The notes under the pieces: generated by a model
The model's database searches: none
Told to the model about the DNA's origin: nothing
Seen by the model: the letters and a program-made list of their open reading frames with translations, nothing else
Assembly: GCF_900100695.1 (NCBI RefSeq)
Contig: NZ_FNCF01000001.1
Location: forward strand, 650,060 to 714,059
Length of the DNA: 64,000 nt
Reading direction: 5' to 3'
Source: Klenkia brasiliensis
Lineage (GTDB): Bacteria; Actinomycetota; Actinomycetes; Mycobacteriales; Geodermatophilaceae
Shown here: positions 28,246 through 58,706 of the stretch, in pieces
Position numbering within the stretch: position 1 is the stretch's first letter
Layout: the number at the start of each line of letters is the position of its first letter
Made by a program: the position numbers and the translations under genes

Positions 28246-28273
28246 CTCCCCGCCGCTGCCCCCGCCCGTGCGC

Positions 28274-28365
28274 AGCGTTGATCAGGGGAGTTGATCGACG
28301 TCCGTCCTGGTTCACCGGATCTCGTGAGCCAGGACGGAGTTGGATCAACCTCCCTGATCAACGCT
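28274..28365. repeat. 92-bp long-hairpin repeat, copy 1
   Basis: Nearly the whole element is self-complementary: AGCGTTGATCAGGG at one end pairs with CCCTGATCAACGCT at the other, and an inner CCGTCCTGG pairs with CCAGGACGG. Each arm carries the TTGATC motif twice. A second ungapped copy (about 88% identical by eye) lies at 58175-58266. Both copies sit between convergent genes. Here the right arm contains the stop codon of the HAD gene. It could act as a two-way terminator or be a small non-autonomous mobile element. Confidence 0.88.
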
Positions 28366-29029
28366 GGCGGCCCAGCGGGGTGGAGTCGAGGGCGGCGGTG
28401 AGGTCGGCGGGGGTGTCGTAGAGCTCCACGGCGCCCGCCGCGCGCAGCTCGTCGTCCCCGAACCCGCCGGACCGGACGACGTAGGCGGGCATCCCCGCCC
28501 GCTTCGCCGCCTCCACGTCGTAGACCGAGTCGCCGACGACGACGGCCGGTGCGTCCTCGGGCTCGCCGAGCTTGGTCAGCGCGGTCCGCAGCAGGTCCGG
28601 CGCGGGCTTGGAGGCCTCGACGTCGTCGCTGGTGGTCCAGGCCTCGGCCAGGTTCCGGGCGTCCAGGAGGTCCAGGTAGTGGTCGACCTGGTCGGACTTG
28701 CCCGAGCTGGCCAGCACCAGGCGGTGCCCGGCCTCCCGGACGGCGACGAGCAGGTCCCGGGCGCCGGGCAGCGGGGACAGCTCGCCGAGCAGGGGCTGCA
28801 CCTCCTGCTCCCACCGGTCGCGGGCGGCGTCGCCGAGCCGCTCCTCCAGCTCGTCGCCCCCCACCGCGGCGACCAGCTGGTCCCCGCCCATGCCGATCAG
28901 CCGGTGCAGCCGCCACACCGGCACGGTCTCCCCGAGCGACCGGAAAGCCCGGTACCAGGCCAGGGCGTGGTGGTAGTTGGAGTCGACGAGGGTGCCGTCG
29001 ACGTCGAGGACGGCGATGCGCGGAGCCAT
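28358..29029 (-). CDS. HAD-family hydrolase (phosphoglycolate phosphatase-like)
   Basis: 223 aa, ATG at 29029-29027. HAD motif I is VLDVDGTLVDS (residues about 5-15), motif II is VLASSGKS, motif III is the Lys in EASKPAPDL, and motif IV is VVGDSVYDVEAA. A helical C1 cap lies between motifs I and II. This is the beta-phosphoglucomutase/phosphoglycolate phosphatase-like subfamily acting on small phosphorylated metabolites. It is convergent with gpgS. A link to phosphoglycerate metabolism is tempting but unproven. The stop codon falls inside the 92-bp palindromic repeat. Confidence 0.87.
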   Translation of the reverse strand: MAPRIAVLDVDGTLVDSNYHHALAWYRAFRSLGETVPVWRLHRLIGMGGDQLVAAVGGDELEERLGDAARDRWEQEVQPLLGELSPLPGARDLLVAVREAGHRLVLASSGKSDQVDHYLDLLDARNLAEAWTTSDDVEASKPAPDLLRTALTKLGEPEDAPAVVVGDSVYDVEAAKRAGMPAYVVRSGGFGDDELRAAGAVELYDTPADLTAALDSTPLGRQR

Positions 29030-36713: not shown

Positions 36714-36746
36714 GCCCCCATCCTCCCCCGCCCGGGGTCCCGCGGG

Positions 36747-36820
36747 GGTGGGAGGCGATCGTGCACGGTGGGAGGTGGTCGAGACGGCCTCCCACCGTCG
36801 GCGACGAACTCCCACCCCGC
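36747..36820 (+). repeat. 74-bp palindromic repeat, 5' flank of first AbiEi/DUF559 gene
   Basis: The repeat has an inner perfect 11-bp inverted repeat, ACGGTGGGAGG with CCTCCCACCGT, nested in an outer GGTGGGAG/CTCCCACC pair. An ungapped copy (about 78% identical by eye) lies at 37999-38072, so the gene is bracketed by both. The left arm repeats GGTGGGAGG twice. Confidence 0.85.
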
Positions 36821-36834
36821 TGGCCAGCCAGCCC

Positions 36835-36860
36835 TCCACAGCCGCGCCCGCTGTCCACAG
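36835..36860 (+). promoter_or_regulatory. Paired TCCACAG sites upstream of first AbiEi/DUF559 gene
   Basis: TCCACAG occurs at 36835 and 36854, a 19-bp period, with the second site 56 bp before the ATG. The paralogous gene at 46769 has the same two sites with the same period and distance (57 bp). The sites resemble half DnaA boxes but are more likely operators or promoter parts of this gene family. Confidence 0.6.
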
Positions 36861-36909
36861 ATCGCCCGGACAGGCCCCGCTGGCGCGTCCGGTCGGCGAC
36901 CGTGGCGGC

Positions 36910-38010
36910 ATGTCCCTCGTCCTGCCCCTCGAGACCCGCGAGGTCGCCCGCCAGCGGCTCGGCCTGCTGACCCGCCGGGGGCTCCTCGACCGCGGCATGA
37001 CCGATCGCGAGATCGCGGCCGCCGTCCGCCGGGGCGAACTGCGCCGGGTCCGTCCGGGCTCCTACGTCTCCGCGGCCGACTGGGCCGAGGTGGAGCGCAC
37101 CCGGCGCATCCCGGGCCTGCACGCGCTGGCGGTGTCCGAGTCCGTCGGCGCCGGGACGATGCCCCTCGCCGCCGACACCGCCGCCTGGGTGTGGGCGCTG
37201 CCGCGGCCACCGCGCGCACGGGACGGCGGCGACCCGGTGCACCTGGTCAACCCGTCGGGGCCGGGCGCGCGTGGCCGGGACTGGGTCCTCCACCGGGCCG
37301 CGGTCCCACCGGAGGACGTCACCACGCGCGGCGCCTACCTGCTCACCTCCGCTTCCCGGACCGTCGTCGACCTGGCACGACGATGGCGTGAGGTCGACGC
37401 CGTCGCCGCCGTGGACGCTGCGCTGCTGCGAGGCCTGACCACCACCGAGGACCTCCTGGCCGTGCTCGACCAGCACGCGACCGTGGCCGGGACGCCCGCC
37501 GTCCGGCGAGTCCTGGAGCTGGCCGACGGGCGGGCGGAGAGCTGGTTGGAGACGTGCGGCCGTCTCGCGTTCGCGGCCGGCGGGCTCCCACCCTTCCTGC
37601 CCCAGGTCGAGATCCTGCTGGACGGCGAGCTGCTCAAGGTCGTCGATGGCTGGTACCCGGAGGCAGCGCTGGCGGTCGAGTTCGACGGGCGCGCCAAGTA
37701 CCTCGCGGCCACCCCGACCGACGTGTGGGAGGAGAAGCGCGTCGAGGACCTGCTCCGGTCCTTCGGCATCCGGTTCATCCGGGTCACCTACGAGATGCTC
37801 ACCCGTGGGTGGTCGGCGCTGCGGGACCGCGTGCTGCGGGAGCTCGGCCGACCGGGTCCCTCCGCACGGGCGTTCGGCGAACGGCCGCGACGGGCCGGGA
37901 AGGTCCGGGGTGGGGTGGGTGCCGACGACGGGTGGCTGTGGCGGGCCTCCGACGCCGTCGGTGGTCCGGGCGGGCCCACGGGTCTCGTCGGCCCGGGGGG
38001 TGGGGGGTGA
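36910..38010 (+). CDS. AbiEi-antitoxin-like winged-helix protein with DUF559-type nuclease-like domain (paralog 1)
   Basis: 366 aa. The N-terminus (LGLLTRRGLLDRGMTDREI, then RRGELRRVRPGSYVS) is the AbiEi_4 winged-helix type found in type IV antitoxins. A central domain follows (DTAAWVWALP, TSASRTVVDLARRW). The C-terminal domain has the DUF559/PD-(D/E)xK pattern VVDGWYPEAALAVEFDGRAK, with Asp, Glu and Lys in place. No AbiEii-like nucleotidyltransferase toxin is nearby. The stop codon lies inside a 74-bp repeat that also occurs upstream. It may be an orphan regulator, a defence protein, or the protein of a small repeat-bounded element. Confidence 0.7.
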   Translation: MSLVLPLETREVARQRLGLLTRRGLLDRGMTDREIAAAVRRGELRRVRPGSYVSAADWAEVERTRRIPGLHALAVSESVGAGTMPLAADTAAWVWALPRPPRARDGGDPVHLVNPSGPGARGRDWVLHRAAVPPEDVTTRGAYLLTSASRTVVDLARRWREVDAVAAVDAALLRGLTTTEDLLAVLDQHATVAGTPAVRRVLELADGRAESWLETCGRLAFAAGGLPPFLPQVEILLDGELLKVVDGWYPEAALAVEFDGRAKYLAATPTDVWEEKRVEDLLRSFGIRFIRVTYEMLTRGWSALRDRVLRELGRPGPSARAFGERPRRAGKVRGGVGADDGWLWRASDAVGGPGGPTGLVGPGGGG

Positions 38011-38072
38011 TCGCCCACGGTGGGAGGCCGGTGCACCGACCTCCCACCGTCAGGGATGACCTCCCACCCCGC
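37999..38072 (+). repeat. 74-bp palindromic repeat, 3' flank of first AbiEi/DUF559 gene
   Basis: This copy matches 36747-36820 without gaps and keeps the inner ACGGTGGGAGG...CCTCCCACCGT hairpin arms perfectly. It begins 12 bp before the end of the AbiEi/DUF559-like gene, whose TGA (38008-38010) is inside it. Confidence 0.85.
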
Positions 38073-46493: not shown

Positions 46494-46602
46494 GCGGTCC
46501 CTCCCGGGGCGTCGGCGGTGACGTGGACCATGGTGAGCCGGGTCACCAGGTGGTGGAACACCGCTTCCACGATGCGGAAGGTCAGCGGCGCGTCGCCGCG
46601 GG

Positions 46603-46676
46603 GTGGGTCAACCCGGCGCGCCGCCCGTTGCGTCGTGCCGTGACCTGGGCGGAGGGACGCCGGGCCGGGTGGACCC
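46603..46676 (+). repeat. 74-bp repeat, 5' flank of second AbiEi/DUF559 gene
   Basis: It starts GTGGGTCAACCCG and matches the reverse complement of 47840-47913 without gaps (about 74% by eye), with a long identical core GTGCCGTGAC. The two copies are therefore in inverted orientation around the gene. It is a different family from the GGTGGGAGG repeat that flanks the first paralog, yet the same length. Confidence 0.75.
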
Positions 46677-46692
46677 GCAGCACGACCGGTCA

Positions 46693-46718
46693 TCCACAGC
46701 CGAAGCGGCCGTCCACAG
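46693..46718 (+). promoter_or_regulatory. Paired TCCACAG sites upstream of second AbiEi/DUF559 gene
   Basis: TCCACAG at 46693 and 46712 repeats with a 19-bp period, and the second site is 57 bp before the ATG. Spacing and flanks (CCACAGCCG, GTCCACAGATC, CCCGG) are shared with the first paralog, while the repeats further out differ. This marks the pair as functional for the gene itself. Confidence 0.6.
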
Positions 46719-46768: not shown

Positions 46769-47866
46769 ATGAGCACGCTCATTCCCACCGCCGTCGACGG
46801 CGGAGCCCGGTCGCGCCTGGGCGTCATCACCACGGCGGACCTGCACGCCACCGGGGTGACCGCGAAGGAGGTGCGCACCGCCGTCCGATCCCGCGCGTGG
46901 GTCCGGCTGCGCACCGGGGTCTTCGTCTCGGTCATCGACCTCGCCGAGGTGGAGAGCACCGACCGCCGCCACGGGCTCGACGCGCTCGCCGTCCTCGCCT
47001 CCCTCGACCGACCCACCGCGGTGCTGGCCGGCGAGTCGGCCGCGTGGGTGTGGGGTCTACCCCAGCCGGTCGGGGCGACCGCGACGGTGCAGCTGGTCGA
47101 CCCCCACCGCTACCGCTCCGGTCGCGGCTGGCGGATGACCCGGGCGGCGCTCCCGCCGGGGGACGTCGTCCGGCGTGGCGCCTACCCGCTCACCTCCCCC
47201 GCCCGCACCGTGGTGGACCTGGCCCGCACGCGCCAGGAGGTCGACGGGGTCGCGGCCATCGACGCCGCCCTGCTCCGCGGGCTGGTCACGCCGGCCGAGC
47301 TGGCCGCGGTGCTGGCCGCGCAGGTGAACGTGCCGGGGATCCCGCGGGCGGTGCGGGCGGTCGCCCTCGCCGACGGCCGGGCGGAGTCGTGGCTGGAGAC
47401 CAGGACCCGGCTGGAATGGGATGCCGCCGGTCTCCGGCCGTTCGTCCCCCAGGTCGAGCTGTGGCAGGACGGCGAGTACGTCGTCGTCGACGGGTGGGAC
47501 GACCAGGCCGCGCTCGCCGTGATGGCCGACGGGCGGCTGAAGTACAGGGACGGCGCCTTCGGCCGCACCGCCGAGCAGGAGGTGTGGCGGGAGAAGCGGG
47601 CCGAGGACCGGCTGCGGGCGGCCGGCGTCCGGTTCGTCCGGCTGGCCCTGCCCGACTTCGCTCCGCGCCCGTGGCGGGACCACACCACGCGGATCCGGGC
47701 GGTGCAGGCAGTGCCCGGTCCGGCCGTGCGCACCTTCCGAGCGGTGCCGCGCTCGAGCGGGCGGGTCCGGGTCCCGGTCACGGTGGACGACGGCTGGCTG
47801 TTCCGTGCCGACGACCGGGTGGGCGGCTCACCCCGGGCCGGCTCGACCCACCGCGGCGCCCGTTGA
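46769..47866 (+). CDS. AbiEi-antitoxin-like winged-helix protein with DUF559-like domain (paralog 2, altered active site)
   Basis: 365 aa, similar throughout to the protein at 36910. It has LGVITTADLHATGVTAKEV (winged helix), SAAWVWGLPQPVG, LTSPARTVVDLARTRQEV, DAALLRGLVTPAELAAVL and DGRAESWLETRTRLEWDAAG. In the DUF559-like core the catalytic Glu is lost: LAVMADGRLKY stands where paralog 1 has LAVEFDGRAKY, so nuclease activity is doubtful. The last nine codons lie inside the 3' 74-bp repeat. No partner toxin is visible. It interrupts the oxygenase region. Confidence 0.68.
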   Translation: MSTLIPTAVDGGARSRLGVITTADLHATGVTAKEVRTAVRSRAWVRLRTGVFVSVIDLAEVESTDRRHGLDALAVLASLDRPTAVLAGESAAWVWGLPQPVGATATVQLVDPHRYRSGRGWRMTRAALPPGDVVRRGAYPLTSPARTVVDLARTRQEVDGVAAIDAALLRGLVTPAELAAVLAAQVNVPGIPRAVRAVALADGRAESWLETRTRLEWDAAGLRPFVPQVELWQDGEYVVVDGWDDQAALAVMADGRLKYRDGAFGRTAEQEVWREKRAEDRLRAAGVRFVRLALPDFAPRPWRDHTTRIRAVQAVPGPAVRTFRAVPRSSGRVRVPVTVDDGWLFRADDRVGGSPRAGSTHRGAR

Positions 47867-47913
47867 CCCACGTCACGGCACGGACCAGCGGGCGCCCGGA
47901 CGGGTTGACCCAC
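47840..47913 (-). repeat. 74-bp repeat, 3' flank of second AbiEi/DUF559 gene
   Basis: This is an inverted copy of 46603-46676. On the plus strand it contains CTCGACCCAC, GTTGACCCAC and GGGTTGACCCAC. It begins within the end of the gene, as in the first paralog. The following 28 bp reach the P450 stop codon. Confidence 0.75.
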
Positions 47914-47941
47914 GCTGCGGCACGGGCCGAGGTGCGGCGCC

Positions 47942-58159: not shown

Positions 58160-58174
58160 GCCGCCCCCTCGGTC

Positions 58175-58266
58175 AGCGTTGATCAGGGAGGTTGATCCAA
58201 CCCCGTCCTGGTTCACCAGATCTCGTGCACCAGGACGGAGTTGGATCAACTCCCCTGATCAACGCT
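58175..58266. repeat. 92-bp long-hairpin repeat, copy 2
   Basis: It is the same length as 28274-28365 and aligns without gaps. The loop region (TTCACC, then GATCTCGTG) is in the same orientation, but the outer-arm variant bases are swapped: GGGAGG on the left with CTCCCC on the right, against GGGGAG and CCTCCC in copy 1. It fills the gap between the convergent PaaX-like and MarR-like genes. Confidence 0.88.
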
Positions 58267-58277
58267 GGGCCCGGGGG

Positions 58278-58706
58278 TTAGCCGGCGGCGGTCCAGATGC
58301 GGGTGAGGACGTCGCGCAACCGGTCGCGCTCGGCGTCGGCCAGCAGCCCCAGCGGCGCCTCCACCGCGGCGGTGGCATCGCGCTCGGCGTCCTCGCGCAG
58401 CGCCCGGCCGGTGTCGGTGGCCAGCACCAGCCGGGTGCGCCGGTCGGCCTCCGAGGGTCGGCGCTCCACCAGCCCGCGGCCGGCCAGCTCGTCGACCAGC
58501 AGCACCACCTGGGAGGGGTCCAGGCCCAGGACGTCGGCCAGCTCGCGCTGGGTGATGCCCTCGGCGGCGTCGCAGGCCAGCACCAGCACCGAGTACTGGC
58601 GCACCCGCAGCCCGTGCCCGGCGAGCGCGGCGTTGGTGGTGCGCACGACCGCACCGCTGGCCCGGGAGAGCAGGAATCCCAGGTCGTCGGTCAGCGGGTG
58701 ACCCAT
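58278..58706 (-). CDS. MarR family transcriptional regulator
   Basis: 142 aa, ATG 58706 with GGAGG five bases upstream; ATG 58718 is possible. The winged helix is ITQRELADVLGLDPSQVVLL followed by VDELAGRGLVERRPSEADRR, with the wing RRTRLVLATDTG. It is divergent from an SDR gene, and the 76-bp intergenic region has an imperfect 21-bp palindrome (58717-58737) covering the SDR promoter's -35. It likely represses the SDR-amidohydrolase-ligase-MaoC operon and itself. The ligand would be an aromatic acid or CoA ester by family habit. Confidence 0.87.
   Translation of the reverse strand: MGHPLTDDLGFLLSRASGAVVRTTNAALAGHGLRVRQYSVLVLACDAAEGITQRELADVLGLDPSQVVLLVDELAGRGLVERRPSEADRRTRLVLATDTGRALREDAERDATAAVEAPLGLLADAERDRLRDVLTRIWTAAG

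Follow-up and report, generated by a model that had tools for sequence, protein, structure and literature searches.

A nuclease-like gene bracketed by its own palindromes in Klenkia brasiliensis: a candidate nuclease-repeat unit of Actinomycetota

Introduction

The stretch of Klenkia brasiliensis DNA analysed here, referred to as the window, comprises 64 kb of contig NZ_FNCF01000001.1. Within it, an AbiEi-type gene lies between two long palindromes. A first-pass annotation, made from the sequence alone, likened the arrangement to REP-associated transposase systems and named autoregulatory binding of an AbiEi protein to inverted repeats as an alternative. The question raised by the locus is what holds a nuclease-like gene and a pair of palindromes together. 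The explanation favoured here, judged slightly better than an even call, is that gene and element pair together constitute a nuclease-repeat unit, similar to RAYT-REP and built from unrelated parts. At the level of sequence comparison, the analysis demonstrates bracketing, elements specific to each gene lineage, a 20-bp spacing, dispersal, concerted change and an upstream motif.

The gene and its flanking elements

The open reading frame starts with an ATG at 36910 and is translated without an internal stop as far as the stop codon at 38008-38010. The gene and its elements are located as follows.

36910..38010, + strand: gene of 366 amino acids, with an AbiEi-like DNA-binding half and an EDxHD/Vsr-like nuclease half
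36744..36820, unstranded: 5′ element, a nested dyad-symmetric palindrome with boxes at about 36747, 36767, 36788 and 36808
37996..38072, unstranded: 3′ element, overlapping the last codons (repeat comparison and box spacing)

The two nested palindromes first described around the gene were confirmed at this place, with a measured length of 77 nt each (36744-36820 and 37996-38072) and an identity of 79%. Each copy contains four boxes, GGTGGGAGG twice and then its complement twice, at intervals of 20, 21 and 20 bp, with slight changes in the first box of the 3′ copy and in the last of the 5′ copy. The 3′ copy does begin within the coding end, as had been noted, its onset lying about 14 nt ahead of the end of the stop codon. 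Comparison of the upstream with the downstream flank gave an E-value of 7.8e-16, and none of 120 control genes reached 1e-6. Chance pairing of the flanks is ruled out by this result together with the matched near- and far-flank controls given below. The two adjoining genes are NUDIX and CoA_binding_2, and no AbiEii/DUF1814 toxin gene was found at these two adjacent positions.

Among the close inverted repeats listed for the window, this element pair accounts for two of the four longest, and solo copies of an element belonging to another gene account for the remaining two. The genome search proposed in the first-pass annotation returned six copies of the window-type element in the 4.45 Mb (14 contigs) of the own genome, two at the gene and four elsewhere. 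The window also holds a paralogue with elements of its own.

46769..47866, + strand: paralogue gene, 51% identical, with its own inverted element pair (homology and flank comparison)
46586..46677, unstranded: 5′ element of the paralogue, unlike that of the window gene in sequence (flank comparison of locus L019)
47839..47929, unstranded: 3′ element of the paralogue, overlapping its coding end (flank comparison)
28262..28371, unstranded: solo copy of the high-copy L021-type family, whose cognate gene lies on another contig (C12:274505; repeat listing and family search)
58163..58278, unstranded: second solo copy from the L021-type family; no close inverted repeat listed for the window is longer

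The solo copy at 28262-28371 also matches the type-B element (G000:C3:678360).

Predicted fold of the protein

The only family recognised above cut-off by Pfam was AbiEi_4, at residues 10-53 (E 4.2e-6); neither a DUF559 match nor an HUH/Y1 (Y1_Tnp) domain was found by Pfam in the window protein. A predicted model of the protein, with a mean pLDDT of 78.8, is divided into two halves.

36910..37527, + strand: residues 1-206, predicted AbiEi antitoxin fold (6y8q, Z 12.2)
37534..37860, + strand: residues 209-317, predicted nuclease fold (3r3p, I-Bth0305I, Z 10.4; 1cw0, Vsr, Z 8.5)

The first half of the model aligns with the S. agalactiae AbiEi antitoxin over 182 residues (rmsd 4.4) and with Rv2827c at Z 8.9. 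The second half of the model aligns with the homing endonuclease I-Bth0305I over 96 residues (rmsd 2.6), and its further matches include NGO0050 (Z 9.6) beside Vsr. TnsA, the nuclease subunit of Tn7, appears among the fold matches at Z 5.5, and the best matches are to non-transposases. The antitoxin-type DNA-binding domain claimed from the sequence is thus upheld by both the Pfam match and the predicted AbiEi fold. The AbiEi/DUF559 label survives in its AbiEi part; DUF559 was not recovered by Pfam, and the nuclease fold of the second half is visible in structure comparison only. Foldseek also returned rows for ribosomal proteins, and the structure comparison returned rows for ANT nucleotidyltransferases.

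The columns E214, D246, E257, D259 and K263 are conserved in 25-28 of 28 aligned homologues, with E214 present in 27, D246 in all 28 and D280 in 20. Where a catalytic His would normally stand, 26 of the 28 have Lys, on the authors' reading of how residues match the motif. An internal stop occurs in the matched frame of homologues L050, L056, L063 and L024, and L056 is also without a detectable element pair. These four genus loci are omitted from the alignment (A1) and included in the flank test.

AbiEi-type proteins bind paired inverted repeats, according to PMC7319586, and PMC3943268 describes I-Bth0305I as forming a dimer on a target almost 60 bp long. Together these suggest that a dimer could occupy the dyad element of about 75 bp.

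Bracketing across the family and the phylum

Homologues of the gene were present in all 30 Geodermatophilaceae genomes searched. Among the genus genomes, 30 of 32 homologous loci share an upstream and a downstream repeat at E<1e-4, and flank comparisons indicate that the element sequence is particular to each gene lineage. The wider-class loci of the family set were sampled from homologues without internal stops, in order of E-value, within the listed part of 200 matches. A flank pair was found in 77 of the 101 distinct loci in the set at E<=1e-6 and in 87 at 1e-4. The identical test on control genes of comparable size gave 0/120 and 7/120; these were taken with a simple ORF caller from the window and loci L072-L103, with the five orthologue loci L076-L080 excluded. 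After correction of some gene starts, the family counts became 81 and 91 of 103, which leaves 12 of 103 without a pair even at 1e-4. When near and far flanks of the same family loci were compared as a matched control, none of 100 was positive on either side at 1e-6, and five and three were positive at 1e-4.

Homologues at E<=1e-20 occur in 29 of 100 genomes spread over Actinomycetota, own genome included. With one locus tested per genome and L238 dropped because it lies at a contig edge, a pair was detected in 16/27 at 1e-6 and 19/27 at 1e-4; the remaining eight have none even at 1e-4. The matched phylum controls were positive in 0/27 and 1/27. In Tsukamurella tyrosinosolvens all three genes tested have the pair (E 3.6e-20, 2.9e-21 and 4.1e-13), and flank comparison of four neighbouring genes gave 0.002 or worse. 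Arthrobacter sp. StoSoilB13 has it at both of two loci (E 3.1e-8 and 2.7e-15), and the single Nonomuraea locus has none (0.002). Taken together, five of these six named loci are bracketed. For loci L291-L293, the ends of the genes are estimates based on the tblastn match.

Bracketing by its own palindromes is therefore a general pattern in the sequences compared, of which the window gene is one case. A cassette peculiar to the K. brasiliensis genome is ruled out by the bracketed homologues in genus, family and phylum. No homologue was found among 50,697 phage records; in viral contigs no homologue was confirmed, and the window element pattern had no exact match there.

Architecture and position of the elements

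In the family set, 6-mer direct repeats at exactly 20 bp occur in 35 of 77 upstream elements, against 2.7 in shuffles, and likewise in 35 of 77 downstream elements, against 2.9. These 35 elements are not all independent, since the set includes orthologous genes. Some flank pairs show a spacing of 19 or 21 bp in place of 20 in certain lineages. Inverted 6-mer pairs strongly favour even distances, as one dyad would give. The 19 phylum pairs, a weak test made without shuffles, show 19 bp upstream in three and 20 bp in one, with three and four downstream; owing to this weak signal the 20-bp rule is claimed for Geodermatophilaceae only.

The 3′ element starts at a median of 2 nt after the stop codon (interquartile range -12 to 9). 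It lies within 30 nt of the stop in 63/77 loci and overlaps the coding end in 28. The 5′ element ends at a median of 115 nt before the inferred start. Hairpin potential is marked, with z below -3, in 47 of 77 elements. On inspection of the aligned elements, no GTAG/GTGG tetranucleotide stands out beside the palindrome.

The locus in the genus Klenkia

The genomes compared include the own genome (G000), K. taihuensis (G007), K. soli (G002), K. terrae (G008), Klenkia sp. PcliD-1-E (G005) and Modestobacter sp. Leaf380 (G004). Orthologues of the window gene, at 74-80% identity, are present in five of the eight other genus genomes (G002, G003, G005, G007 and G008). At the DNA level, the repeat is first apparent only at the K. 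taihuensis orthologue. Diverged elements were found by profile search on both sides of the orthologues in G007, G008, G003 and G005, and flank comparison revealed that the G002 orthologue has its own element pair. The first-pass annotation had set against itself the case of a syntenic gene lacking the repeats in all relatives; the gene is indeed syntenic, but all five genus orthologues are bracketed.

Identity between the 5′ and 3′ elements of one genome ranges from 0.78 to 0.86 (mean 0.82) over the six genomes, whereas the same element position compared between genomes has a mean identity of 0.69 and a maximum of 0.85 (G000 with G007). The two flanking copies thus change together.

The search for empty sites proved productive. 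The cassette is missing from G004, where the NUDIX gene and the CoA-binding gene lie directly side by side, and from G001, where some 80 bp remain between them. G006, which is 73% complete, gave no match to the window locus. Flank identity to the window is 91% for G001, 89% for G002 and 86% for each of G003, G008 and G004. The flank of G001 is closer to the window than those of G002, G003 and G008, which have the gene, and loss of the cassette in G001 is therefore suggested. Comparison with the empty sites in relatives revealed no clean target duplication at the cassette site.

Dispersed copies and their coupling to the gene

Elements are dispersed in all five families searched, from a few to tens of copies. 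L021-type matches number at least 40 in G000, 75 in G007, 43 in G005, 38 in G002, 28 in G008, 19 in G004, 17 in G001 and 8 in G003, with none found in G006; a palindrome was often matched on both strands in these counts, and in several genomes the best 40 candidates were scored. The aligned copies, flanking ones included, number 18 in G000 and 23 in G007 and come in an asymmetric and a symmetric form. With the two solo copies of the window, the total is at least 20 in G000 and 23 in G007. Of 14 solo L021-type loci followed from the own genome, 12 are occupied at the corresponding position in K. taihuensis and one is empty there. Since so many are occupied in both species, spread is either slow or old. 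No new insertion was caught among the sites compared. Comparisons of five solo sites with other genomes listed no clean junction with a target duplication, so the proposed check for such duplications drew a blank at the solo sites compared as at the cassette.

Two distributions link the elements to the gene. The element of the K. terrae gene L061 occurs at eight sites in G008, two of these flanking the gene. Elsewhere it has two sites in G001 (flanking the relative L060), two in G003 and one each in G002 and G006; it has none in G000, G004, G005 and G007. The L021 locus has orthologues in seven genomes with flanks of either type A or type B. Distinct type-B sites number at least 27 in G001, 17 in G008 and 9 in G005, where the gene carries type B. 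They number 7 in G002, 4 in G000, 3 in G004 and 1 in G007, where the flanks are type-A-like, and 2 in G003 and 0 in G006, where the orthologue was not identified. The prediction, made before this search, that type-B copies would be most numerous in the three type-B-flanked genomes was borne out. Repeats scattered with no link to such genes, the other case that the first-pass annotation had set against itself, were not what was found: the dispersed repeats link to family genes. Repeats without a gene link are rejected as a full account because the L061-type distribution and the type-B counts follow the gene.

The coupling of gene and element, as far as the copies compared indicate, is not strict. 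Type-A copies fetched from G001 (6/6) and G008 (7/7) resemble the type-A flanks of other genomes, not their own type-B flanks, although a type-A query, by which they were found, favours this mismatch. Type-A matches are also many in G005. The best match fell within the own clade for six of seven copies of G002 and for all 16 of G000 and G007, a comparison that used eight of the 14 loci from the own genome and eight of the 20 fetched from G007. At one orthologous intergenic site the element is type B in G001 and G008 and a mixture of A and B in G000, and G005 has no element there. Window-type GGTGGGAGG copies persist at four sites of G005, while its own orthologue is flanked by another type.

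Some of the solo copies examined sit just after stop codons. Solo window-type elements were observed at the same intergenic site in L075, L084 and L086, and at another in L074, L081 and L085; neighbours named from their translations are an rpe-like gene (element before it) and a uvrB-like gene (element beside it). As the sites are shared by three species, these solo copies are inherited. At L192 (1001-2154) of the own genome a gene lies between two elements and is gone, along with one element, in K. taihuensis (L204), which looks like a deletion between elements. The inter-element segments of L192 and L186 were also considered as a moved cassette and rejected, as other genes lie inside and the L186 segment is merely shorter in G007 (L207).

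In Tsukamurella, element 1 occurs at 12 places in nine records and element 2 at 20 places in eight; all matches among 72,556 plasmid records were in this genus. Three of the Tsukamurella 'plasmids', NZ_LR134464.1, NZ_LR134454.1 and NZ_LR134451.1 (L288-L290), contain genes for purine biosynthesis and the cell wall as well as gatA, and look like chromosome fragments mislabelled as plasmids.

A DnaA-box-like motif upstream

A scan of the 250 bp ahead of the start codon found the motif TCCACAG, on either strand, in 83 of 101 homologues but in only 2 of 120 controls; none of the 101 downstream regions has it. Its context is mostly YYGTCCACAG and its position -107 to -49, with many near -86. Nine of ten same-strand pairs are spaced 19 bp apart. 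The window has eight TCCACAG sites, of which four precede the two homologous genes.

36835..36841, + strand: TCCACAG, first of a pair 19 bp apart (motif scan)
36854..36860, + strand: TCCACAG within CTGTCCACAGATC, second of the pair (motif scan)
46693..46718, + strand: TCCACAG pair 19 bp apart, upstream of the paralogue (motif scan)

The motif precedes these 83 family genes whatever type of element they carry. It is rare beyond Geodermatophilaceae (5 of 27 phylum loci), and neither of the two Tsukamurella genes checked has it upstream. PMC4285127 gives TTGTCCACA as the high-affinity DnaA box of M. tuberculosis and S. coelicolor. DnaA would, by this resemblance, bind at the putative TCCACAG boxes, and the motif may tie the genes to replication initiation.

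Proposed mechanism and alternative explanations

In the nuclease-repeat unit as proposed, the AbiEi-like half would bind the boxes. Each arm would take two subunits, about two turns apart on the same helix face, and the protein would span the dyad as a dimer or tetramer. Nicking or cutting by the EDxHD-like half could follow, either close to the dyad or on the element extruded as a hairpin. Repair templated by another copy would homogenise the flanking and dispersed copies and occasionally seed or replace one. Through the bracketing elements the gene would stay linked to its targets, and DnaA may couple expression or activity to replication. The binding, cutting and mobility of the unit are thus put forward conditionally. 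An enzyme that acts on its own element and drives copying between elements would be the simplest account, since it covers bracketing, lineage specificity, concerted change and dispersal.

A rather unlikely alternative is a regulator with a retained nuclease fold, whose flanks are autoregulatory operators or terminators and whose dispersed copies form a regulon or 3′-end signals. According to PMC7319586, AbiEi and Rv2827c autoregulate through inverted repeats in the promoter. The distance of the 5′ element from the start would suit such a role, as would the solo copies just behind stop codons, the possible hairpins and the slow turnover of solo copies, which fits sites kept for function. The 3′ element at the stop codon, however, is in no place for a promoter, the nuclease columns are conserved, and the nearest two neighbours encode no DUF1814 toxin. 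A shared terminator role would not need matching 5′ and 3′ sequences, given that each gene lineage has a different element. The autoregulation named at the outset may hold too; alone, it leaves the stop-codon element and the dispersed copies unexplained. Regulation alone accounts for less than the nuclease-repeat unit does, though it fits the stable solo sites.

Mobility of the whole cassette is possible and is unsupported by junctions, whether by homing or by transposition. In the homing form, which is improbable, an element-gene-element cassette copies itself into chromosomes with a single element or none by cutting the target, and solo elements are empty targets or what is left once the flanks have recombined. 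The nearest nuclease fold being a homing endonuclease and the absence of the cassette at the same site in G004 and G001 speak for it. Yet orthologous genes occupy the same locus across species, which suggests vertical descent, the G001 absence is best read as loss, and the phage records and viral contigs yielded no homologue and no confirmed homologue, respectively. Still far less probable is an ordinary insertion sequence, with the elements as terminal inverted repeats and the gene as transposase. It would be in keeping with a nuclease-like protein and with the inverted flanking pairs of L021 and L066. Against this, the nearest thing to a second copy in the own genome differs in its ends and shares only 51% identity, no target duplication was seen in the few sites compared, where flanks have diverged, the ends are themselves full palindromes, and the best fold matches are not transposases.

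The nuclease-repeat unit remains the preferred explanation. A broader version is quite conceivable, though short of probable: a phylum-wide class in Actinomycetota, independent of RAYTs, in which an AbiEi-EDxHD protein would recognise dyad elements with boxes two helical turns apart, maintain and remodel its own population of repeats by cut and copy, and be switched on by DnaA in step with replication.

Significance and comparison with known systems

What emerges looks like a widespread partnership of a soil-actinobacterial enzyme with its own repeat, so far undescribed. No palindromes bracketing AbiEi/DUF559 genes were found in the open-access literature, covered by titles and the openings of abstracts, with subscription papers largely outside. 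To our knowledge, the protein and element resemble no known repeat-protein pair. If the proposal is true, orphan AbiEi/DUF559 genes in these bacteria would be repeat-maintaining nucleases, not antitoxins, and the unit would be a second, independent solution to the RAYT/REP life style. The many genes annotated as no more than orphan AbiEi-type or DUF559 gain a testable role, and palindromic repeat families in Actinomycetota gain a candidate cognate protein. The constant 20-bp box spacing with changing box sequence also offers a natural series for the study of protein-DNA specificity.

Several known systems share part of this arrangement. The AbiE type IV toxin-antitoxin systems (AbiEi, Rv2827c) have the same N-terminal AbiEi fold and paired inverted repeats upstream; unlike these, the present gene is without an adjacent AbiEii/DUF1814 and has an extra nuclease domain, a 3′ element and dispersed copies. 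EDxHD homing endonucleases such as I-Bth0305I, and Vsr, resemble the protein in the predicted C-terminal fold, the acidic catalytic columns and a long dyad-like putative target. The protein differs in having mostly Lys for His, and it is encoded by a free-standing chromosomal gene that lies outside any intron and is flanked by two full putative targets. MITEs and terminal-inverted-repeat elements are likewise short dispersed palindromes related to the ends of a gene-bearing unit, whereas the elements here showed no target duplication in the few sites compared and have lineage-particular ends, concerted change and fixed 20-bp boxes.

The closest parallel is RAYT-REP, whose units are also called REPtrons or TnpA-REP, and the REP-associated comparison made at the outset stands for the bracketing and dispersal. 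It fails for the transposase, as the protein has no HUH/Y1 domain and its predicted folds are AbiEi and EDxHD/Vsr. According to PMC3686654 and PMC3733652, RAYT genes have palindromes on both sides, with mostly intergenic dispersed copies, some behind stops, and orthologous genes are flanked by differing repeats. The Klenkia-type gene similarly has on either side the palindrome whose further copies are scattered over its genome. In contrast to the HUH/Y1 tyrosine transposase of RAYT-REP, the protein here is AbiEi plus EDxHD-like; the elements are about 75 bp long with boxes 20 bp apart, the GTAG tag is not evident, and the hosts are Actinomycetota. For all the likeness in life style, the unit is not filed as a member of RAYT-REP, because its protein and DNA are different. 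If any protein with dispersed palindromes is counted as one kind, the nuclease-repeat unit falls within that kind.
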